A stretch of 36,621 bases of DNA from an archaeon. GTDB taxonomy: Archaea > Nanobdellota > Nanobdellia > Woesearchaeales > GW2011-AR9. The stretch is taken from contig JAUYKZ010000023.1 in the NCBI GenBank assembly GCA_030704845.1, positions 78,262-114,882 on the forward strand, given 5' to 3'. Positions 1 through 9,415 of the stretch are shown here, piece after piece (within the stretch, counting starts at the first letter, position 1; the number at the start of each line of letters is the position of its first letter). The notes below the pieces were generated by a model. It was not told where the DNA came from. It did no database searches and saw nothing but the letters and a program-made list of their open reading frames with translations. Made by a program: the position numbers and the translations under genes.

Positions 1-972
1 AGGTGTGCCGCACAGGGTAGTGGAGGGATAGCCGGAAGCACAGAGGTCGTCGACGGCGACATTGGCTTCTGTTGCAACAGCGACCTCTCCAACAACTGCA
101 ACACGTGGCGTGATACACCCACCGGGATCCACGATGTAGTGAGTATTGGGAATTAGTGAACCAGTGATGCCCCGCATTACGCCTGCAACGGAAAGGGTAC
201 CATCCGCTATAGTGAGGACTGGGCCTCCAGAATTTCCCTTGAAGTTGTCCAAGTTGGTCGCGAAGATTGTACCCAAGTCGGCAGTAACAAGACCATCGCG
301 GACGACCTTCGCTGGCACCCCGTCAGGACTGCCCACGAGAGACACGACGGAACCTTGATTGACTGAGCGCGAGAGAACGGGCGCGGGAGCATGCTGTAGC
401 TCGTCCTCGTTGCGGTCAATTCGAATAAAAGCGAAGTCAGCGCCAGCATCATTCCGGGACTGCACGACGGTTGTGCACCGGTACGCATATCCCAGGATCG
501 GGGCCGCTACCGCATCGTTCGCGTTGTAGTAGCCAAAACCAACTATCGCATCCGCGCAGGATACGTTGTCGAAGCAGTGCGCGGCGGTAAGAACTAGATC
601 CCTGTCGACGAGAACTCCTGAGCAAAACGCAGCGGCCTTCTGTCCACGGTAGGGCGCGCATACAGCCAAGTCACCGAACTCTGACTGGAGTTGAACCTCA
701 AGAGTCCACGAATTGCGAATCCAGTTGTTGGCATCAGCCGCAGGGTCCCACAAATGAATATCCTGCAGCAGCGTGACCGCAGACTCATCCATGAGCCGTC
801 GATGCGGATCATTGACGGGTAATTGCCAGTATTCTTCGCGAGAGTCACGACCGAAGAGAAGTTGCGTTTCACGGGCGCGAGGCCCCTCAATGGACTCGGG
901 CTCAGGCGCGCAGCCACCGATTAACACCGATCCCGAGAGGGCAAGCAGTGTAGAGACGCAGATCGATCTCAT
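1..972 (-). CDS. Trypsin-like (S1) serine protease, predicted lipoprotein, 3' end cut by window
   Basis: The reading frame is open from an ATG at 972 through the left edge, giving 324 codons with no stop, so the C-terminus is missing. A hydrophobic N-terminus ends in a lipobox (LIGGC, Cys21), so the mature protein should be exported and lipid-anchored. All three S1 catalytic positions are visible: TAAHCF with His132, an Asp at about 179 (ADFAFIRID) and GNSGGP with Ser248. Several Cys pairs suggest disulfides. The start is supported by GGAGG about 8 nt upstream. The distance from the N-terminus to His132 is long, so there is an extra N-terminal segment of unknown role. It sits on the GC-rich element and is transcribed away from the small membrane gene at 1084. 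Substrate unknown. It could be a secreted effector or a surface-processing enzyme. Confidence 0.85.
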   Translation of the reverse strand, partial: MRSICVSTLLALSGSVLIGGCAPEPESIEGPRARETQLLFGRDSREEYWQLPVNDPHRRLMDESAVTLLQDIHLWDPAADANNWIRNSWTLEVQLQSEFGDLAVCAPYRGQKAAAFCSGVLVDRDLVLTAAHCFDNVSCADAIVGFGYYNANDAVAAPILGYAYRCTTVVQSRNDAGADFAFIRIDRNEDELQHAPAPVLSRSVNQGSVVSLVGSPDGVPAKVVRDGLVTADLGTIFATNLDNFKGNSGGPVLTIADGTLSVAGVMRGITGSLIPNTHYIVDPGGCITPRVAVVGEVAVATEANVAVDDLCASGYPSTTLCGTP

Positions 973-1051
973 GAGTCCACCCTCCATCCGATGTCAAGCT
1001 AGTCGTCACTCGCCAGAACGTCAAGGGGCATGGCAGAGATCAGCATCGGTA

Positions 1052-1060
1052 GATTTAAAT
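1052..1060. promoter_or_regulatory. TATA-like box between divergent genes
   Basis: The AT-rich block GATTTAAATAGG stands out in GC-rich DNA. Its centre is about 28 nt before the ATG at 1084, the archaeal TATA-to-start distance for a leaderless mRNA. The TTTAAA core is self-complementary, so it could also serve the protease gene on the other strand. Confidence 0.5.
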
Positions 1061-1083
1061 AGGATGTCCCCTTGCCAGGCAAC

Positions 1084-1335
1084 ATGACTCTGAAGCCTAC
1101 CGTTGACAAGGTGATTGTGACGATGATGTCCGCCGTCCTGGGCCTGCTCTTGGGTCGGCTCGGGTTTTGGTGGGAAATTGGCCCAACCAGCCTTGCAGGT
1201 CAAGCGAGTGAGGATTCTATTCTACGAATTGCGATTGTTGTTCTACTTCCAATCGGTGTCTACTTGTTCTGGAGCTACCTTGTCGAGCAAGAGCAGCCGA
1301 CATCAATGTCACCCCCTTCCCGACAGCAGCCCTAG
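1084..1335 (+). CDS. Small two-TM membrane protein, copy A
   Basis: Eighty-three residues with two hydrophobic segments (about residues 8-27 and 45-64) joined by a short loop; no known family recognised. The ATG at 1084 is chosen because the TATA-like box lies about 28 nt upstream. It resembles the product of 1638-1910: both have a GLxLGR motif after the first hydrophobic stretch, then PTSLA, and both end in the same eleven residues. The shared tail arises because both genes run into the same 248-bp repeat. Its last 27 nt overlap the oppositely oriented helical gene at 1309-1548. Convergence with a partner, repeated twice, suggests a functional gene pair of unknown role. Confidence 0.55.
   Translation: MTLKPTVDKVIVTMMSAVLGLLLGRLGFWWEIGPTSLAGQASEDSILRIAIVVLLPIGVYLFWSYLVEQEQPTSMSPPSRQQP
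1298..1311. promoter_or_regulatory. Palindrome CGACATCAATGTCA, site 1 (parS-like or operator)
   Basis: GACAT and ATGTC arms around a central CA. The same 13-mer occurs at 1873 and, on the other strand, at 6062 upstream of the parB-like gene. Three copies inside 6 kb of a ParB-encoding element suggest a binding site, either a centromere or an operator. This is inference. Confidence 0.4.
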
Positions 1336-1545
1336 CGCTTCCAACTTCAGCTCGATCTTCCGTAGGTTCTTGGCGATGCCCTTCACGTCGTTAGCGCTTC
1401 TACGGGCCCTTTCGATGTACTCGGCAGCCGTTACTCGCGAACCAGAGTTGAGGTAGCTCTCCGCTAGCTTCAACCAGTTGCGCGTGTGGTCTTCCGTAGA
1501 CCGAAGCAGAGCTTCGTAGTGGGCGAGCTTCTCTTCGAATCCGAG
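1298..1545. repeat. 248-bp direct repeat, copy 1
   Basis: Matches 1873-2120 with about eight substitutions by eye. It starts exactly at the palindrome CGACATCAATGTC and ends within the 5' part of the small helical gene. All the differences I could place are synonymous in the minus-strand protein. Confidence 0.9.
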
Positions 1546-1548
1546 CAT
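1309..1548 (-). CDS. Small helical TPR-like protein, N-terminally altered copy
   Basis: Seventy-nine residues, almost wholly helical, with a TPR-like stretch (NWLKLAESYLNSG then AAEYIERARR). From Gly3 on it is identical in amino acids to the protein at 1884-2153, but the N-terminal segment of that protein (VKKEIGLTLGR) is absent here. The ATG arises where copy 1 reads GAGCAT and copy 2 reads GAGTCG. Unlike copy 2, it is not joined to an upstream operon. All eight nucleotide differences from copy 2 are silent in this frame, which argues that both copies have been under selection as protein. It overlaps the 3' end of the convergent membrane gene. Confidence 0.6.
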   Translation of the reverse strand: MLGFEEKLAHYEALLRSTEDHTRNWLKLAESYLNSGSRVTAAEYIERARRSANDVKGIAKNLRKIELKLEALGLLSGRG

Positions 1549-1604
1549 CCCAGGGCGACAAGACCAACGGCCACGAGATATCGGCTCACTCTCGACCTCG
1601 CGAA

Positions 1605-1615
1605 AGTATTATATA
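1605..1615 (+). promoter_or_regulatory. Archaeal TATA box for 1638 gene
   Basis: GTATTATATAC lies 23-33 nt before the ATG at 1638, in otherwise GC-rich DNA. The spacing fits a leaderless archaeal transcript. Confidence 0.6.
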
Positions 1616-1637
1616 CAAGACAAGCCTATCTCGTATC

Positions 1638-1910
1638 ATGGTGGACATTCAAGGGGATTCTGTGACTAGGTGGACAGTGCTCGGCGGGTTAGTCTTCGGG
1701 GTAGTAGGCCTTTACCTTGGGAGGCAGCTAACGCCCACGTCACTGGCATGTATCAACCCATACCTTTGCCAGAATATCATGTCGGTAAGCGTGATTGCGG
1801 TCTTCGTCACAATTGTCGGTGCCGCTATCACTTGCAAATGGCGGATGTCGCGCCTGCTGCAAGCTGGCGACGCGACATCAATGTCACCCCCTTCCAGACA
1901 GCAGCCCTAG
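1638..1910 (+). CDS. Small two-TM membrane protein, copy B
   Basis: Ninety residues with two hydrophobic segments (about 14-32 and 49-66) followed by a basic patch (CKWRMSR) that would face the cytoplasm. It is a divergent relative of the product of 1084-1335: the order of hydrophobic segment, LGR, PTSLA and second hydrophobic segment is shared, and the last eleven residues are identical. The start is the ATG about 27 nt after a TATA box. The 3' end overlaps the convergent helical gene by 27 nt, as in copy A. No family recognised; a membrane anchor for the helical partner is possible but unproven. Confidence 0.6.
   Translation: MVDIQGDSVTRWTVLGGLVFGVVGLYLGRQLTPTSLACINPYLCQNIMSVSVIAVFVTIVGAAITCKWRMSRLLQAGDATSMSPPSRQQP
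1873..1886. promoter_or_regulatory. Palindrome CGACATCAATGTCA, site 2
   Basis: Identical to site 1 at 1298 and the reverse complement of the core of the site at 6062. It marks the exact left end of repeat copy 2 and lies inside the coding end of the membrane gene. Confidence 0.4.
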
Positions 1911-2120
1911 CGCTTCCAACTTCAGCTCGATCTTCCGCAGATTCTTGGCGATGCCCTTCACGTCATTGGCGCTTCTGCGAGCCCTTTCGATGTACTCGGC
2001 AGCCGTGACTCGCGAACCAGAGTTGAGGTAGCTCTCCGCTAGCTTCAACCAGTTGCGCGTGTGGTCTTCCGTAGACCGAAGCAGAGCTTCGTAGTGGGCG
2101 AGCTTCTCTTCGAATCCGAG
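1873..2120. repeat. 248-bp direct repeat, copy 2
   Basis: Second copy of the repeat at 1298-1545. The two are 575 bp apart, start to start, so the duplicated unit is one convergent gene pair. Confidence 0.9.
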
Positions 2121-2153
2121 TCGTCCTAGGGTGAGCCCAATCTCCTTCTTCAC
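1884..2153 (-). CDS. Small helical TPR-like protein, full-length copy
   Basis: About 89 residues. The likely start is the GTG at 2153, which overlaps the stop of the upstream gene as GTGA and implies translational coupling; an upstream TTG at 2171 is also possible. The protein is helical, with a TPR-like helix pair in the middle and a basic amphipathic helix (KNLRKIELKLEAL) near the end. It is the last gene of a four-gene operon that runs from 4997 to 1884. Its C-terminal 76 residues equal those of the copy at 1309-1548. It probably acts with the coiled-coil membrane protein encoded just upstream. Confidence 0.65.
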   Translation of the reverse strand: MKKEIGLTLGRLGFEEKLAHYEALLRSTEDHTRNWLKLAESYLNSGSRVTAAEYIERARRSANDVKGIAKNLRKIELKLEALGLLSGRG

Positions 2154-2677
2154 TTCCTGCGCGCCCACCAATCGCGGATGTTGCTCGACTCCCGACGCAA
2201 CTCGCCGTACCGGCCGACATCGAGGCGCTTAACCCGCTCGGTCATTTGTTGCAGGTCTTGGATATACGCCATGAGGGCGTCGTCCTCGGCCGACAGGCTG
2301 CGAAGCGCCTGCCGGGCTTGGGGGACCGCGTCTTCGCCATCCCGGAGAACAAGCCCGTGGAGATTCTTGAGGGAGCGCTCCATGCTCCCGGCCGTGCCGA
2401 TCTCTTCCTTCGCCCGCTGTTGGAACACACTGGGAGCATGATGGAGGGCTGAGAAGAGCATCATCAGAAGAACGCTCCCGAGAATGAGGACGCCGATTGC
2501 GCCAGCAGTTCTCCCGAAATCGCGGTAGTGCATCGTGCCGACGGTGAGGAGCGCAGCCGCAGCCACCGAGAGGAGTCGCCCTTGAGAGCCTCCAATGCGA
2601 CGGCCAAGGCCGGCATAGCTTAGAGCCAGGAAGATGATGAAAACGAGTCCATATGCGACAAGGTCGTCAGGAATCAA
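2150..2677 (-). CDS. Two-TM membrane protein with cytoplasmic coiled coil
   Basis: A 175-residue protein with hydrophobic segments at about residues 8-24, 36-46 and 58-78, followed by about 95 charged helical residues that look like a coiled coil and end in DWWARRK. No known family recognised. The start is a TTG at 2677 that overlaps the TGA of the upstream gene (TTGA), preceded by GAGGTG about 5 nt upstream; no ATG lies early enough to keep the first membrane segment. Its own stop overlaps the start of the next gene. Such tight coupling suggests the operon products form one membrane-associated assembly. Confidence 0.65.
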   Translation of the reverse strand: MIPDDLVAYGLVFIIFLALSYAGLGRRIGGSQGRLLSVAAAALLTVGTMHYRDFGRTAGAIGVLILGSVLLMMLFSALHHAPSVFQQRAKEEIGTAGSMERSLKNLHGLVLRDGEDAVPQARQALRSLSAEDDALMAYIQDLQQMTERVKRLDVGRYGELRRESSNIRDWWARRK

Positions 2678-3141
2678 TCACGCACCTCAAACAGGATTGG
2701 ACCGTGCTTCTTGACGGCCGCCTTCAAAGTGTGGATTGTCTCTGCAAGCTGTTTGCCCGCTGGAGTGAGGCGGATGAAGCGTTTTCCGCGTTTCCAGCTT
2801 CGCTCAATGTAGCCCTCCCGCTCGAGGCGGGTCAAACTCCTGGCTCGGAGGAACTGAAGGTCACTCAGGGGAAGACACCCGCTCACGATATCATCGACCG
2901 ACCTGGAAGCCCACCCGATCCCGTTCCTTGCGTACCAATTCCGTCCCTGGACCATGTGCTCAGCCGGCACGAGCCCAGTCGATATCGTGGCATGTCCGGT
3001 CGGCGTTGTTCGCGGAACGTACCCAAGGCGAACTTTGTGCCATGCCTGCAGGGCAGATAGCGGCAGTCGGCGCCTCTCCTCGCTGAATGCAGAGTAGGAG
3101 ACTTGGTCGACTATGAGAAGGGCGGACCGTCTATTTTGCAT
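2674..3141 (-). CDS. Phosphodiesterase-like N-terminus joined to a winged helix
   Basis: A 155-residue protein. Residues 7-70 resemble the start of the type I phosphodiesterase/alkaline phosphatase superfamily: a hydrophobic strand with Asp12 (LLIVDQ), then TTPTGHATISTGLVPAEH (45-62), the segment that normally holds the nucleophile. The rest of the roughly 300-residue catalytic domain, with most metal ligands, is absent. Residues about 91-135 look like a PadR/MarR-type winged helix (LTRLEREGYI, then RFIRLTPAGKQLAE). The ATG at 3141 is 8 nt after the upstream stop; a TTG at 3186 is an alternative. It may be a regulator that uses the phosphatase fold as a sensor, or a decayed fusion. Catalysis looks unlikely. 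Confidence 0.55.
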   Translation of the reverse strand: MQNRRSALLIVDQVSYSAFSEERRRLPLSALQAWHKVRLGYVPRTTPTGHATISTGLVPAEHMVQGRNWYARNGIGWASRSVDDIVSGCLPLSDLQFLRARSLTRLEREGYIERSWKRGKRFIRLTPAGKQLAETIHTLKAAVKKHGPILFEVRD

Positions 3142-3149
3142 GCACGTGA

Positions 3150-4997
3150 CTAGTCGAGAAGTCGGTCCAAGCCGTGATAGTAACAAAGGTACTGATGCAG
3201 CGGGGCTAGTAGCTTTGGAGCAGCTGCCCTCAGCGTCAAGGTACCACTTGACGATGAGTCAGACGGTTCGCCGGCGAGAACTGCCGCGAGTTCGTCCTCC
3301 AGCAATCTCCGGTCCTCGTCATCCACAGCAATCCCGGAAACGTACTCCAGAACCACAGCCTTCGTGAGATAAGGAAATCGTGTGGCAACGTCGCTGCGAG
3401 AAGGCCTATGCTCAAGCCACGCCTCGATTCCTTCAGCAAGCGCGGCTACGACACATTTGTACGGGCGTGGGTCGCCCATAGTGAGAAGAAGTCGATCAGG
3501 AGGCTTCGGGGCGGGCTCGGGAGCTCGAAGCATCTCCCAAGTCGCAAACCACTCTGCATAATGGGTGGCTCCTGCGAGTTGCTTCACCTCGAAATCAGTG
3601 AGGCTCGATGCTGCGCTCGGTTCGTGGCGTCGAACAGATTCCCCCAACTCTCCTTTCAGTGCTGGCAGGTTCGATGTGTCGGTTGGTAGTGTTGTCATTT
3701 CTCTTGGTGTAGATCGCTCTGACTGCGCCCTCTCGAGTCCAGCACGCAGAGTATCTATAAAAGACTTCCGGTTCGAGACTTCGTCAAGAGCTCCCCATGA
3801 GACCGTCGGTGGCACGGGCTCGTAATCGAGGAAACCCCCACTGGCCGCGGTCAGGCCGGGCCGTTCGTGGCCGAGTGCACGCGTGACGAAATCGACGATG
3901 GCAGGTCGAAATGGATCTCCCTCAGTCGCGCTGATGTCGACTAGACACGCATTGGCCTCGGCGTTTCTGCCTGTCGCTCGATAGGTTCGAGCAAGACCAA
4001 GCAATGCCCTCGTGCGTAGTCGTGGATGCGAGCAGCAGCGCTCGAACCAATGCTCAGTGTAGGTGACGTCCCGCTCGGACGGCGGACCCGATGTGCAGAG
4101 AATTGAAACGTAGCCAAGGTAGGCGCGCATCAGCTTGCACAGCGACAGCCCGCGGAGAACATTCATGATCCGGAAGCCGCGCTCCGCCTCAGCCAAGTGA
4201 GTTGCGGCCCTCTGCAGCGCGGGCCATGGTTCCTCCGAGCCGATGGCATCCCACGCGTTGAGAAAACTCAGGTGCTTGTGACGGAAGGACTCGAAGAACC
4301 ATCCTTGTGACAAACTTGGACGAAATGCATCCTCGGCTTCACGAATAGCCCGTAGAAGGGCTTCCTCGTTGCCGAGCGGCGGTGCGCCAGCCTCGATGGG
4401 CAGCAGCAGCTCCAGAAACTCGCAGGGAGCGCTGCCACGATAATGTGAGATCGCAGCCTGCTTCGGATGGTAGTCCATCGACCCGCCGGCAAACGGTCCT
4501 AGGCACTCTTGCGCCCACGCGAAGTGGCCAAGGTAACGGAGGTAGTTCGCAATCTCGACGGCGAGATTGGCACAGTCTAGGATAGTGATCCTATCAATGA
4601 ACTCAAGGCCCAACTCAGTGGCCTTTTGCAGTGTGGTGTGCGCGCGCTCCTCTTGTCCCGCGTGCCTTGCCGTGTAGGCAACCCCAATCAAGGCGTCTAC
4701 CCGAGCGCTAGGGTGGGCCTCCCGCAGATCCGCGAGTTGTACAAGTTCCCTACCGACTCCCAGCGAATCCTCGTGTTGGTCGAGATAAGTGCAAATCTTG
4801 GTCGCACGCTTCCCGGCCTTTGCGGCGAGCCGGCCGCCGTGCACGGGCGACGTCATTAGCTGGCGTGCGGCCATCAATGCGCCTTCAAATGAACGAGACC
4901 TGGGGGACAGATCGGCCTCCGGCAGACACCACGGAGTCTGGCTATCCCCCAACTTCGCGTGGATGGACTGCTCAAGAGTGGTGCAGAGGGAGGGCAT
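3150..4997 (-). CDS. Large helical (TPR-like) protein of unknown function
   Basis: A 615-residue protein, first gene of the 4997-to-1884 operon. Residues about 40-360 are rich in helix pairs with TPR character (for example RTRALLGLARTYRATGRNAEANACL near residue 330). The C-terminal third contains a low-complexity, Pro/Ser/Thr-rich linker and then another helical domain ending in LLAPLHQYLCYYHGLDRLLD. No signal peptide, membrane segment or enzymatic motif is visible. The gene follows an ATG without a strong ribosome-binding site. By context it could be the scaffold of the operon's assembly. Function unknown. Confidence 0.6.
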   Translation of the reverse strand: MPSLCTTLEQSIHAKLGDSQTPWCLPEADLSPRSRSFEGALMAARQLMTSPVHGGRLAAKAGKRATKICTYLDQHEDSLGVGRELVQLADLREAHPSARVDALIGVAYTARHAGQEERAHTTLQKATELGLEFIDRITILDCANLAVEIANYLRYLGHFAWAQECLGPFAGGSMDYHPKQAAISHYRGSAPCEFLELLLPIEAGAPPLGNEEALLRAIREAEDAFRPSLSQGWFFESFRHKHLSFLNAWDAIGSEEPWPALQRAATHLAEAERGFRIMNVLRGLSLCKLMRAYLGYVSILCTSGPPSERDVTYTEHWFERCCSHPRLRTRALLGLARTYRATGRNAEANACLVDISATEGDPFRPAIVDFVTRALGHERPGLTAASGGFLDYEPVPPTVSWGALDEVSNRKSFIDTLRAGLERAQSERSTPREMTTLPTDTSNLPALKGELGESVRRHEPSAASSLTDFEVKQLAGATHYAEWFATWEMLRAPEPAPKPPDRLLLTMGDPRPYKCVVAALAEGIEAWLEHRPSRSDVATRFPYLTKAVVLEYVSGIAVDDEDRRLLEDELAAVLAGEPSDSSSSGTLTLRAAAPKLLAPLHQYLCYYHGLDRLLD

Positions 4998-5103
4998 TAG
5001 GCCGTCGCCAAAAGTGTTGAGGCTAGACTACCACTGCCCTGAGTTGCGATCAACCCTGCTGAAAAATCGTTCCGGAACAACCGGTTACATCATTTACAAC
5101 ATT

Positions 5104-5997
5104 CTACATCCCCTCGACGAACTCCAGCACCCTCTTCAGGTCGGCAACCAGAGCCTCGCGCTGCTTCGGCGACATGCTGACGTCGATGGAGATGGGGCGG
5201 ATGCGGAGGGACTTCTGGCCCTTTTTCTCGCTCTCGACGAAGAATTCGATCTTCTTGTTGACGGCGGCCTTCTCGACGCCCTCCTTGAGCATCTTGCTCA
5301 GCTCGATGTAGCTCGGCTTGACCTCCTTGATGCGGTCCAGCCAGTTCTGCACCTGCGCGGACGTGAGCTTGTACTTCTCGGCGTGCTGCATGAGGCGCAC
5401 GGCGTTGGTCGAGTTCACGGCTCCCGAATCGACGGCATCCTGGAGCGCCTTCGGGAACTCGACCAGCTTCTGCAGACGCTGACGCTGGCGGGACCCGATG
5501 TTGAAGATGGTCTCGATGTCCTCGTTGGTCTTGCCGGTCTTCTTGTACGCGAGCATGGCGTAAGCCCGGTCGAGGTCGGAGTAGCTCTTCCTGACCTCGT
5601 TCTCCAGGATCGAGATCCTGAACGCCTGCTCGTCGGTAATCTCGTTGCGGACCACCGCACTGAGGCTCGTCCAGCCGAGCTGCTTGATGGCCGTCGCCCG
5701 CCGGAAGCCGGAAACGACCTGGTACGTATCTCGCCCGGGGACGCGACGCACGAGGATGGGGAACTGCTGGCCCTCCTTGGCGATGCTCTCGACGAGGTCA
5801 CCGACGCGCATGTTCACGCGGAAGCGGTAGGTCTCGTCTTCGAGATCGATGCTGGATAGCGGCAGATCCTGCACGTTTCCACCGGGCGGCAGAATCTCCT
5901 GGACCTCCTTGGGTCTGTTGCTGGCCTCCGCCGGCGGGGGCAGGCGATTATCAACGCGCTCCGTGGGCGCCTCGGGGGCGATCTTCTTGCGGGCCAT
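5104..5997 (-). CDS. parB: ParB/RepB/Spo0J-family partition protein
   Basis: A 297-residue protein. Residues about 42-135 form the ParB N-terminal domain: LPLSSIDLED, then FPILVRR and GFRRATA (97-103), the equivalent of the GERRxRA nucleotide-binding motif, then LENEVRKSYSDLDRA. A helix-turn-helix region follows at about 150-205, then a charged C-terminus. The ATG at 5997 is chosen because GAAGGAG sits about 7 nt upstream; an in-frame ATG-like start 39 nt earlier lacks this. No parA is visible in the window, so it may lie outside or the protein may act alone. Three copies of a 13-nt palindrome on the element, one of them upstream of this gene, are candidate binding sites. Confidence 0.85.
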   Translation of the reverse strand: MARKKIAPEAPTERVDNRLPPPAEASNRPKEVQEILPPGGNVQDLPLSSIDLEDETYRFRVNMRVGDLVESIAKEGQQFPILVRRVPGRDTYQVVSGFRRATAIKQLGWTSLSAVVRNEITDEQAFRISILENEVRKSYSDLDRAYAMLAYKKTGKTNEDIETIFNIGSRQRQRLQKLVEFPKALQDAVDSGAVNSTNAVRLMQHAEKYKLTSAQVQNWLDRIKEVKPSYIELSKMLKEGVEKAAVNKKIEFFVESEKKGQKSLRIRPISIDVSMSPKQREALVADLKRVLEFVEGM

Positions 5998-6061
5998 GAC
6001 AAACTCCTTCACGTTTCGGCTTGGACTTTCCTGCACTGAAACGACGGCGTCAAGTGAATTG

Positions 6062-6075
6062 CGACATTGATGTCG
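6062..6075. promoter_or_regulatory. Palindrome CGACATTGATGTCG upstream of parB, site 3
   Basis: Six-base arms CGACAT/ATGTCG around TG. It is 65 nt before the parB start, between that gene and its probable TATA box (TTAAATAT, 6111-6118). This placement fits autoregulation by ParB. Confidence 0.45.
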
Positions 6076-6138
6076 GAAAAATGAATTGATCGGGCCTTGA
6101 GCGAAATGATTAAATATCCCCTGAATCTCGTTGGCAAT

Positions 6139-6716
6139 ATGATAATTTCAATCACCAAGGAACGCCTCTGGTTCCTCTACCACGTGGCAGGCATGTGGAT
6201 CGCGTAGTGAGTGGCGCCATGGATTTTCGCGTCGGTCCGATTGCCGATACACCGGAAAGAACCTATTCCATTACCGGGGTCGTGTTTCACGAAGACTATC
6301 ATCGCTCAGAACAGATGTCGAACGACATCGGGATCGTATATTTGCAGCGAGACTTCCACCTACCGCCGATGGAGTATCCTACTTCTCGGTTGTCCGATGA
6401 TAGTTTGGTGGGGGCCACCCTAGAATTCGTCGGGTACGGATACAACCTCAATTCCAACCAACAAGAGATCTCAGTTGGTGTCAAGGCCAGCGTCAAGATG
6501 AGGGTCGCCAAGGCCGATGCGACCACATTCTCGTACTCGGAGGAAGGCAAGAATACATGCAACGGTGACTCTGGCGGTCCGGCTTTTCTGGCCAATGGGG
6601 CCGGTAAGATGGTGGTTGTGGGGATCACGTCATGGGGTGATCTATTGTGCACGCAATTTGGTGTCGATACACGTGTCGACGCCTTCGCTCAGTGGATTTC
6701 CCAACGATTGCGCTAA
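6139..6716 (+). pseudogene. Truncated, decayed trypsin-like serine protease
   Basis: From the GTG at 6195 the frame encodes 173 residues with an S1 Asp motif (NDIGIVYL) and an intact NGDSGGP Ser motif, followed by GITSWG. The catalytic His segment is missing from this frame. In another frame an ATG at 6139, 24 nt after a TATA-like box, encodes MIISITKERLWFLYHVAGMWIA and then a stop; WFLYHVAGM looks like a damaged version of the LTAAHC-VAG region. This suggests loss of the first barrel's N-terminus plus a small deletion and a frameshift near 6200. The upstream 80 nt are AT-rich. If translated from 6195 it would be an inactive pseudoprotease. Confidence 0.6.
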
Positions 6717-6735
6717 CGTAGACCCTCGTGACGCG

Positions 6736-6987
6736 TCAGCGAGATTCACTGTTATTACGGAGTTGTGGTTGTCCGTTCTGCCTTGCCACTTCCTTCGCCA
6801 GCTGCTGTAGCAATCCCTTGTCCCTCTTCAACAAGTTAGATAAGCCACGATCGTCGATCTCGCCTTTTCGGAGAGTCTCGTTCTCCTGCTTGAGACGCTG
6901 CAGTTCATCCCGCATCTCCTTCTGCTCGTCACGAGCGTTGGTGTCGATCCACCTAACGATGACGTCGAGGGCGAGGAAACGGAAGAC
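6736..6987 (-). pseudogene. Remnant of a second tyrosine recombinase
   Basis: Translated on the minus strand, the block reads VIVRWIDTN and then directly ARDEQKEMRDELQ, continuing through the same coiled-coil tail as the integrase at 7820-8995. Relative to that protein, residues about 152-334, which hold all catalytic residues, are deleted exactly in frame. The C-terminal end differs (QNGQPQLRNNSESR instead of QNQRL). An in-frame stop lies just upstream and there is no start codon. It is evidence of an earlier or tandem integration of a related element. Confidence 0.75.
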
Positions 6988-7116
6988 TTAAGTACTTCAG
7001 TCGCATGCCAGTATCTACCGGCATCCGAAAGAGAGCCGGCGGTGGATTCGGGGAACACTCGACCATTTGACGTGGTGGCTCCGGATGTGAGACCATCTAT
7101 ATGGAGGTGGCACTAC

Positions 7117-7521
7117 ATGAACGCGAATATTGTTAAGATCAACTACACTGTTATACCGAGCGAACTGGAGATCTATCGTTTGGCCCTGTTGGGTGACGAT
7201 CTGGACACGGCCGGTCGTGCCAGGGCCATCAGCGACCTGGCACGAGGTTTCCAGAGCGAACTTCTGGAACTCTGGGATCGCTTCCCTGATGCTGCATTCG
7301 TCGCGGTACGATACGACAAGCGCCTAGCCGCCTTGGGACCCGATGAGGAGTCGGTGATCGGTGCGCTCGCGCGTCGCTGCGGAGACGTCTGGGTCGACTA
7401 CATCGATCATCGTCTACCAGCGGTTTACGCCCCTGACTTCCTCGTCACCGCGGACGACATCAGAGAGAGTCACGAGGCGCTGAAGGAGTCGGACGCCGGC
7501 AAGACGATTCGGCTCTTCTAG
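7117..7521 (+). CDS. Unknown protein paired with a RelE/ParE-like toxin
   Basis: A 134-residue acidic protein. The ATG at 7117 is chosen because GGAGGTGG lies 8 nt upstream. No family recognised. Its C-terminus (about 110-134, TADDIRESHEALKESDAGKTIRLF) is a short helical, charged tail of the kind antitoxins use to wrap their toxin. The next gene starts 2 nt after its stop and resembles the RelE/ParE fold, so by position this is the likely antitoxin or immunity partner. It lacks an obvious DNA-binding domain, and at 134 residues it is longer than most RelB/ParD antitoxins. Confidence 0.55.
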   Translation: MNANIVKINYTVIPSELEIYRLALLGDDLDTAGRARAISDLARGFQSELLELWDRFPDAAFVAVRYDKRLAALGPDEESVIGALARRCGDVWVDYIDHRLPAVYAPDFLVTADDIRESHEALKESDAGKTIRLF

Positions 7522-7523
7522 CT

Positions 7524-7760
7524 GTGTGGCGCCTCGAGATTCGTCAGCGCGCAGGTGACGTGCTCCGCGCATTAGGACCCTCTGCCCGTAACCGGGTATG
7601 GATTCTGGCTGTTGATCCTTTGTCAGGCCTGAATGGTGGCACGAACCTTGGTCGCATCAGAATCGGCGGGTTCTTCTTCGCGCGCTATGTGGTCGACAGG
7701 AACACGAGACGAGTGATCATCTACAGAATCGAATACCTGTCGCAGATCTCAGCTCGCTGA
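7524..7760 (+). CDS. RelE/ParE-like toxin candidate
   Basis: A 78-residue basic protein starting with GTG two nt after the preceding stop. The pattern WRLEIRQRAGDVLRAL, then RNRVWILAVDPL, then GRIRIGGFFFARYVVD and VIIYRIEYLSQ follows the RelE/ParE secondary-structure order: a strand, two helices, then strands with the conserved basic residues and a final strand. The match is by eye and moderate. In this family the product is an mRNA interferase or gyrase poison. Toxin-antitoxin pairs often stabilise integrated elements, which fits the location next to the integrase. Confidence 0.5.
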   Translation: MWRLEIRQRAGDVLRALGPSARNRVWILAVDPLSGLNGGTNLGRIRIGGFFFARYVVDRNTRRVIIYRIEYLSQISAR

Positions 7761-7819
7761 CGAAGTAGTCGCCCGCAGGCAGGGACATAGGACGACGTTG
7801 CGGTGATTGTCGCTCGGAC

Positions 7820-8995
7820 TCACAATCTCTGATTCTGCCTCGCCACTTCCTTCGCCAGCTGCTGCAGTAGTCCCTTGTCCCTCTTCAACAAGTCAGATAA
7901 GCCACGGTCGTCGATTTCGCCAAGGCGCAATGTTTCGTTTTCCTGTTTGAGACGTTGCAGTTCATCTCGCATCTCCTTCTGCTCGTCACGAGCTTGCACC
8001 AGTTCGTCCTGGCGAATTCTCCTCATGGTCTCCTCGGAGACTACGCCGGTTCTATCAATGTAGCGGTCCGGCATATCGGAGCTCATCGTCCAGCCCATCC
8101 ACTTGCAGAGCTCGTAGCGGCCAACGCCCTTCGATGCCAGCCAAGTGGCACAACTGTGCCGAAGAACATGGGGAGAAATGCGACGGCCGATGATCTTCTT
8201 CGAGTACTTCGCAACCACGTTGAGCATGGTGCTGTATTTCATGACGAAGAGTGGCGTGTCCTGCTCGTAACGACCGGGATGTTGAGAAAGCCACTCACGC
8301 AGGTACTTCGCGGCTCGGTAGACGACAATCGTCCGCGGATAGGTCTTGCTCACCTCGATACGGACGCTGAAGTAGTTTCCGCGGTCTTCGAGATTTCTCA
8401 GCCTGATGTTCAACATCTCTTCTGCTCTTGCGCCAGTTTCGAAGAGCATCGCGAAGAGCGCCTTCGTCCGAACAGTGGGCGAGAAGTCGACTAGCCGTTC
8501 GACCTCTTGGAGCGAAATCGCCGGGATCTCGACGTCCTCGACATTGGTGTCGATCCACTTGACGATGGCTGGGTATTCTTCGTTGTTACCAAGTAACCAT
8601 TTATAGAATTTCTTGAGAGTGACCTTGAAGTCGTGGAGCGACCAGCTTCGATACTTGCGGAGACGTACATTGCCCCACTTGTCCGGGTAGTAGAGCTGGT
8701 TCGCTTCAATGCGCCTGATGAGACTCTCCATCTGGTCCTGGGTCGCGGTCTCGAAGTCCGCGCCGAGCCAGTGGGCAAGCTGTTTCAGTGTCTGAACGTA
8801 CTTCAGAACTCGCCCATTCGAGATCTTTTTCTTTGCTCTCTTGAGAACTGTCTTGCCAATCAGGCAATCGTTGGCAAACCGCTTGATCAACTCGACGCTT
8901 CGCGCCGGGATGCCCAACTCGTTGCGCTGCAGACAGTCCAGCGCCCACTCGAGACTTCTGCCAGTTTCGTGTACATCAATCTTGTCATCTCCCAT
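7820..8995 (-). CDS. Archaeal-type tyrosine recombinase (integrase) with coiled-coil tail
   Basis: A 391-residue protein that catalyses site-specific recombination. Residues about 35-140 form a SAM-like core-binding domain. The catalytic residues are visible: Arg190 (TGARAEEM), Lys217, HVLRH (His276, Arg279), Trp302 (GWTM) and Tyr312 (MPDRYID). The GW..SSDMPDRY signature is typical of archaeal viral and plasmid integrases. An added C-terminal coiled coil (about 335-391) is unusual. The gene begins 83 nt from the 3' end of tRNA-Glu and has the same orientation, so the tRNA 3' end is the likely attachment site. The upstream neighbour pair looks like a toxin-antitoxin module. Confidence 0.9.
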   Translation of the reverse strand: MGDDKIDVHETGRSLEWALDCLQRNELGIPARSVELIKRFANDCLIGKTVLKRAKKKISNGRVLKYVQTLKQLAHWLGADFETATQDQMESLIRRIEANQLYYPDKWGNVRLRKYRSWSLHDFKVTLKKFYKWLLGNNEEYPAIVKWIDTNVEDVEIPAISLQEVERLVDFSPTVRTKALFAMLFETGARAEEMLNIRLRNLEDRGNYFSVRIEVSKTYPRTIVVYRAAKYLREWLSQHPGRYEQDTPLFVMKYSTMLNVVAKYSKKIIGRRISPHVLRHSCATWLASKGVGRYELCKWMGWTMSSDMPDRYIDRTGVVSEETMRRIRQDELVQARDEQKEMRDELQRLKQENETLRLGEIDDRGLSDLLKRDKGLLQQLAKEVARQNQRL

Positions 8996-9077
8996 AGTTC
9001 AACCTCCGCACTGGAGCACATAAAGGTTGAGCCGGTCAGGAAGCTCGATTCAATGTTGTCACTTTGGAGTGAAAGGC

Positions 9078-9189
9078 TGCCCCCGCCGGGATTTGAACCC
9101 GAGTCACTGCCTCTCTTCAAAAGAAGAGCTTAGAAGCTTGCTTCTTGCGTGAAAGGGCAGTATGATAGTCCGGACTACACCACAGGGGC
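9078..9189 (-). tRNA. tRNA-Glu(UUC) with a 37-nt intron; integration target
   Basis: Seven acceptor pairs form between GCCCCTG and CGGGGGC (one T-G), with discriminator A at 9078 and no encoded CCA. The anticodon stem CTGCC/GGCAG encloses a loop with TTC at 34-36. A 37-nt intron sits between positions 37 and 38, the standard archaeal site; removing it leaves 75 nt. The T arm has GTTCAAATC. The 3' end marks the sharp change from GC-rich to AT-rich DNA, and an integrase gene lies immediately beyond it. Confidence 0.9.
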
Positions 9190-9230: not shown

Positions 9231-9415
9231 TTATACTAAAAAGAATTGGGTTTCAAACCTAATTCTTTTGGTATATACTCAACGCTAAATGAAATTTGGA
9301 ACTTAATTCATTTAGCGTTTGTATATACCAACGAAAAGTTCACAAAAATACTTTTCGTTCAGTATATACCAAAATCCATAGATTTCTGTTTGAAATCTCT
9401 GGATTTTGAGTATAC
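9231..9415. repeat. Array of four unique hairpins separated by GTATATAC
   Basis: Units of GTATATAC occur at 9271, 9321 and 9362, with shortened versions at 9231 (TTATAC) and 9410 (GTATAC). Between them lie four different inverted repeats: 9239-9252/9256-9269 (14 bp, one G/T), 9281-9293/9307-9319 (13 bp perfect), 9330-9339/9350-9359 (10 bp perfect) and 9371-9386/9392-9407 (16 bp, one mismatch). The stems share no sequence with one another. Because GTATATAC is self-complementary, neighbouring units can extend each stem. The array fills the 268-nt gap between tRNA-Glu and the 9458 gene; no gene is visible in it. Confidence 0.85.

Follow-up and report, generated by a model that had tools for sequence, protein, structure and literature searches.

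The window, that is, the whole 36,621-nucleotide stretch analysed, spans positions 78262-114882 of contig C21 in the home genome G000, an archaeal assembly of 1.02 Mb in 24 contigs that is 97% complete. Four hairpins with three GTATATAC units in between lie at 9234-9412, confirming the description in the initial annotation. On the + strand, hairpin 1 (9239-9269) has 15-bp arms at 9239-9253 and 9255-9269 (93% match), hairpin 2 (9281-9319) has 13-bp arms at 9281-9293 and 9307-9319 (100%), hairpin 3 (9330-9359) has 10-bp arms at 9330-9339 and 9350-9359 (100%), and hairpin 4 (9370-9408) has 17-bp arms at 9370-9386 and 9392-9408 (94%). Exact GTATATAC units were located at 9271-9278, 9321-9328, and 9362-9369, compared to 0.23 expected, with no further copy in the window, and the 8-mer occurred 36 times genome-wide compared to 6 times for its reversed control. 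The folding z-score of the locus was -13.2 on the + strand and -12.6 on the - strand, and 0 of 200 shuffles folded as well. The shortened 8-mers reported earlier at both ends are also real (TATAC at 9232-9236 and GTATA at 9410-9414), and they are shortened because they are the ends of an element. At the gathering threshold, tRNA was the sole RNA family of Rfam that was matched; permissive Rfam matches in the four-hairpin array were far below threshold and mostly generic hairpins. That tRNA gene, at 9078-9189 on the - strand, was missed by ARAGORN; it has the anticodon TTC (Glu), as read by eye, and an intron after the anticodon. The G+C content was 54-61% in window positions 1-9000 compared to 31-38% in the remainder, and this high-G+C block, which also carries ParB-like and trypsin-like genes, ends in a tyrosine integrase gene (7820-8995) that lies a short way downstream of the 3' end of the tRNA. 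The block is probably an integrated element; no second copy of the tRNA end was found in the window.

The hairpins pair as two repeated elements, a point that the initial annotation had missed. More than 20 near-identical matches in the home genome contain hairpins 2 and 3 together, and hairpins 1 and 4 stand next to each other, without hairpins 2 and 3, both in the home genome (G000:C18:19966-20055 and C8:193275-193368) and in relatives from other genera (G001, G026, G043, G048, G012, and others). Hairpins 1 and 4 are thus the left and right hairpins of an outer element C (9234-9412, + strand; approximately 90 bp), interrupted centrally by an inner element A (9276-9364, + strand; approximately 89 bp, TACTCAACG...CGTTCAGTA) formed by hairpins 2 and 3 as its left and right hairpins. 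Element A is bordered by a TA on the left (9274-9275) and on the right (9365-9366), and excising 9276-9364 together with one TA joins its flanks into GGTATATACC, the centre of uninterrupted C elements. Judged from the sequence, the four-hairpin array is an element A that landed at a TA in the centre of an element C. Each GTATATAC consists of GTA + TA + TAC, in which a central TA stands between the inner feet of two hairpins, and thus both punctuates the hairpins and is the insertion site; a unit first proposed as a dedicated punctuation signal is better read as a TA target between conserved element feet. The earlier suggestion of repeatedly inserted palindromic cassettes was right in substance, though the unit is a pair of hairpins and the array is one pair nested in another.

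The matches to element A in the home genome were mostly 97-105 bp with 96-100% identity (mostly 98-100%) and were scattered over contigs, often at contig ends. The number of distinct A loci, about 18, is an estimate, since a single locus may be represented by two contig ends. At least 12 of these loci lay inside element C or a third family, element B, three to four abutted B, and three were elsewhere; for insertion into B and C, which make up <0.5% of the genome, this enrichment gives a binomial P of about 1e-24. Element B is 93 bp long, with about 40 copies that are mostly 99-100% identical, and at several sites the flanks of A, when joined over one TA, yielded an intact B, with an exact match of up to 54 nt. 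Surroundings were retrieved for 28 complete B copies, all of them intergenic and none intragenic; among 27 classified copies, the neighbouring genes were in tandem in 15, divergent in 7, and convergent in 5. TA flanked B on the left in 28 of 28 copies and on the right in 27 of 28, with the remaining flank sequence unrelated between copies, and the TAs at the left (9232-9233) and right (9413-9414) edges of C are analogous. TA on both sides in 27 of 28 B copies, along with the restoration of nested sites by excising the element and one TA, is what a target-site duplication would leave, as would an element with an additional TA of its own that does not duplicate the target. Elements A and B (89-93 bp) are short, non-coding, multicopy, and dispersed, as MITEs are, and the nested sites and near-identical dispersed copies point to their mobility. 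Mobile DNA is usually considered scarce in the very small genomes of symbiont-type archaea; here, approximately 60 near-identical two-hairpin copies of at least three families occupy one genome of about 1 Mb. These findings show how 'arrays' of unrelated hairpins arise through nesting, and account for the breaks of such assemblies at these sites.

The outer ends of the elements share, as in MITEs, a terminal inverted repeat (TIR), TATACTAAA-N10-TTTCGAA, of which the ends of A carry a variant. In C, the left repeat (TATACTAAA-N10-TTTCAAA, 9232-9257, + strand) and the right repeat (TATACTCAA-N10-TTTCAAA, 9389-9414, - strand) each have one mismatch to the consensus. The pattern matched 78 times in the home genome compared to 0 times for the reversed control. 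The N10 between foot and loop forms the stem and varies while pairing stays. Among 22 left-type hairpins from many genomes, 91.4% of cells were paired compared to 27-50% in slid controls, and 58 double-change cells were found compared to 18.5 +/- 3.4 in shuffles, a count to which the fixed positions of the foot TATACTAAA and the loop TTTCGAA, invariant because the sequences were selected by that pattern, add nothing. Similarly, in 28 distinct N10 sequences, the arms matched their own partners at 9.5 of 11 positions compared to 6.9 of 11 for swapped partners. Compensatory stem changes, by which the initial annotation had proposed to judge the stems, were thus abundant. Furthermore, the two-hairpin fold was more stable than a single end-to-end hairpin in 24 of 30 elements folded as RNA and 28 of 30 folded as DNA, and the covarying stems and this preferred fold together suggest that the hairpin itself is probably needed. 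In genome G060 (L079, L103, L139, and others), the left and right hairpins of one element tended to agree in their first three to four stem bases, for example AGTG/AGTG and AGCA/AGCA, as if the ends were kept alike.

Considering these results, it is highly probable that two miniature transposable elements of the MITE/REPIN kind, both non-coding and non-autonomous, lie one within the other in this DPANN genome. The insertion of A would have taken place at the central TA of C and have duplicated it. The hairpin at each end, with its TATACT foot and TTTCGAA loop, may be recognised by a recombinase supplied in trans, which may insert the hairpin pair at TA. Since the stem is kept by pairing and not by sequence, recognition probably involves an extruded hairpin, either single-stranded or cruciform. 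TA on both sides fits IS630/Tc1-mariner-like insertion, and the covarying hairpins fit HUH/REPIN-like recognition. We tentatively suggest, with some doubt, a structure-recognised superfamily of mobile elements specific to DPANN, in which the stems change freely if paired, the TATACT foot and TTTCGAA loop stay constant, and each end is joined to TA by a recombinase whose class has so far not been associated with elements of this kind. Neither the home genome nor five element-rich genomes, in assemblies that break at these repeats, contained a TIR pair enclosing a gene, as an autonomous parent would. Searches for Y1, IS630-type, and IS4/5-type enzymes yielded no transposase with matching ends, and no evident transposase was found among multi-copy ORFs near the elements. 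The near-identical copies, the nested sites, and the 16-base signature provide a clean system for the enzyme search.

Alternatively, a TA-targeting DDE transposon of the Tc1/mariner-IS630-like type may underlie the elements, which would then be classical MITEs with terminal repeats that are palindromic by chance, a reading that we regard as quite possible, if short of probable. It would account for TA at both ends, as in IS630/Tc1-mariner MITEs, and for a two-part TIR of about 26 bp in which the N10 spacing is fixed, and it has a precedent in the Correia, RUP, and ERIC elements, which are TA-targeting prokaryotic MITEs. The elements described here resemble these types in being approximately 100 bp long, non-coding, multicopy, and intergenic, with TIRs and TA at both ends. 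However, each terminal repeat here is a covarying hairpin, giving a two-hairpin fold and not one hairpin, the hosts are DPANN archaea, and no parent transposon was found in the genomes searched. A transposase that binds dsDNA would need no variable-but-complementary stems, and DDE_3 was present in one of the 14 genomes searched, as a fragment at a contig edge, with no DDE_3 partner having the same ends. The only DDE_Tnp_1 gene of the home genome (C8:4144-4578) belongs to a broken insertion sequence whose ends, GGCTCTGTCCAGAA, are not those of the elements here; the TATACTGAAT palindrome that surrounds the start codon of this gene was rejected as a link, as it is not at the ends of the insertion sequence.

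A further reading, which appears unlikely despite similarities in architecture, is that these are REPIN-like elements moved, via their single-stranded hairpins, by a Y1 (HUH) tyrosine transposase from the IS200/IS605/RAYT group. A TA duplication is unusual for Y1 transposases. REPINs are inverted pairs of palindromes with conserved feet that lie outside genes, show compensatory changes, and adopt a 'clover' two-hairpin fold (PMC3116915). The elements here share with REPINs and BIMEs (REP doublets; RAYT-associated) the inverted extragenic palindrome doublet with a constant foot, the compensatory changes, and the folding into two hairpins, and Y1_Tnp genes are present in several element-bearing genomes. 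However, the foot here is TATACT (TATACTAAA) and the GTAG tag is absent, the TTTCGAA loop is conserved, TA lies on both sides, and the two-hairpin fold is the more stable. Furthermore, the home genome, though 97% complete, contained 0 Y1_Tnp (RAYT) genes despite dozens of near-identical copies, and the Y1 loci inspected in relatives had unrelated flanks without TATAC feet. PATEs have a hairpin at each end, archaeal hosts, and mobilisation in trans, and the elements here are similar to these and other IS200/IS605-derived miniature elements in such respects, though they differ in their symmetrical TIRs and in ends unlike those of any IS200/IS605 element found in relatives. As both REPIN hallmarks, GTAG and RAYT, were lacking and no autonomous partner was found, we call the elements a MITE-like variant, which is MITE in insertion signature and REPIN in architecture (PMC3116915, PMC3733652, PMC10969869). 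The DHE and RHE of fungal and sponge mitochondria also have two hairpins per mobile unit, and tandem or multiple hairpins arise among them through repeated insertion (PMC2800124). The genomes and sequences differ, and the Allomyces elements lack flanking duplications, whereas TA lies on both sides here.

It is very improbable that selection spread the hairpins for a role mainly as RNA, terminating transcription or stabilising 3' ends. The strong folding of either strand and the exclusively intergenic position of the 28 B copies would agree with such a role, but just 5 of the 27 classified B copies were in a convergent context and 7 in a divergent one, the copy in the window lies upstream of both its neighbours, the tRNA gene (- strand) and a gene on the + strand, and the exact nested insertions demand an explanation by mobility anyway. 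The look of the four hairpins in the window would suggest an array that acts in cis in recombination or as an origin and is functionally punctuated by GTATATAC; this reading has virtually no probability, since nesting explains the arrangement, the components are dispersed singly, and the uninterrupted C elements refute it. The replication origin and recombination array raised by the initial annotation, as well as a CRISPR-like array, find no support in copies dispersed singly across almost all contigs, and the 'unique' parts, unlike the spacers that stand between constant repeats at one locus in a CRISPR array, are dispersed repeats.

The pattern was also present at other loci in many genera, as the initial annotation had asked of it. 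GTDB genome contigs were scanned for exact occurrences of 16 specified TIR bases, and the following statements cover the matches listed. Among these, the hairpin-bearing matches were in genomes of Woesearchaeota, Pacearchaeota, and Nanoarchaeota (DPANN), and the bacterial matches behaved as chance single matches or ordinary terminators. TIR matches in five other genomes numbered 77, 40, 7, 2, and 1, the first two being Woesearchaeota, compared to 0 in controls. A model-based census of the order found the element in 5 of 242 genomes, a value that is too low because few candidates per genome were scored. None of 16 TIR-pattern matches in viral contigs had a hairpin, and phage and plasmid collections gave no element match. 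As far as sequence comparison goes, A, B, and C belong to a widespread family of approximately 90-base two-hairpin elements in DPANN archaea, with the same terminal signature across many genera. In a limited search of the openly licensed literature, no earlier account of elements of this kind from these archaea was found, and the family is apparently undescribed.

Hairpins were also seen singly, in threes, and in groups of four with two small ones in the middle. Versions with two short hairpins between the left and right ones were observed at L030 (2000-2152), L040, L044, L047, L092, L137, and L155, and their middle part looks related across genera (AAAGGGATA..TTTCCCTTT / AAAAGGCTTCTGCCTTTT). 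At L076 (7505-7644), B is followed by A at a contig end, with a sequence apparently identical to the copies in G000. This contig is binned in another Pacearchaeota genome, which otherwise shows only this one TIR pair, and it may represent a recent transfer or a misbinned contig. A separate repeat, GGGTTATTCAAAGCTCTCTATA, is inserted in a hairpin element at L079 (near the 5' end), L133, and L204 (876-902 and 2066-2092). Another genome, G063, has a DDE_Tnp_1 insertion sequence with ends similar to this repeat, and the two are possibly a MITE and its parent type. At about 10 places in G063, short repeated fragments match only the C-terminal 25 residues of a Y1 transposase, which suggests that the 3' end of an IS200/IS605 gene gave rise to a miniature element.
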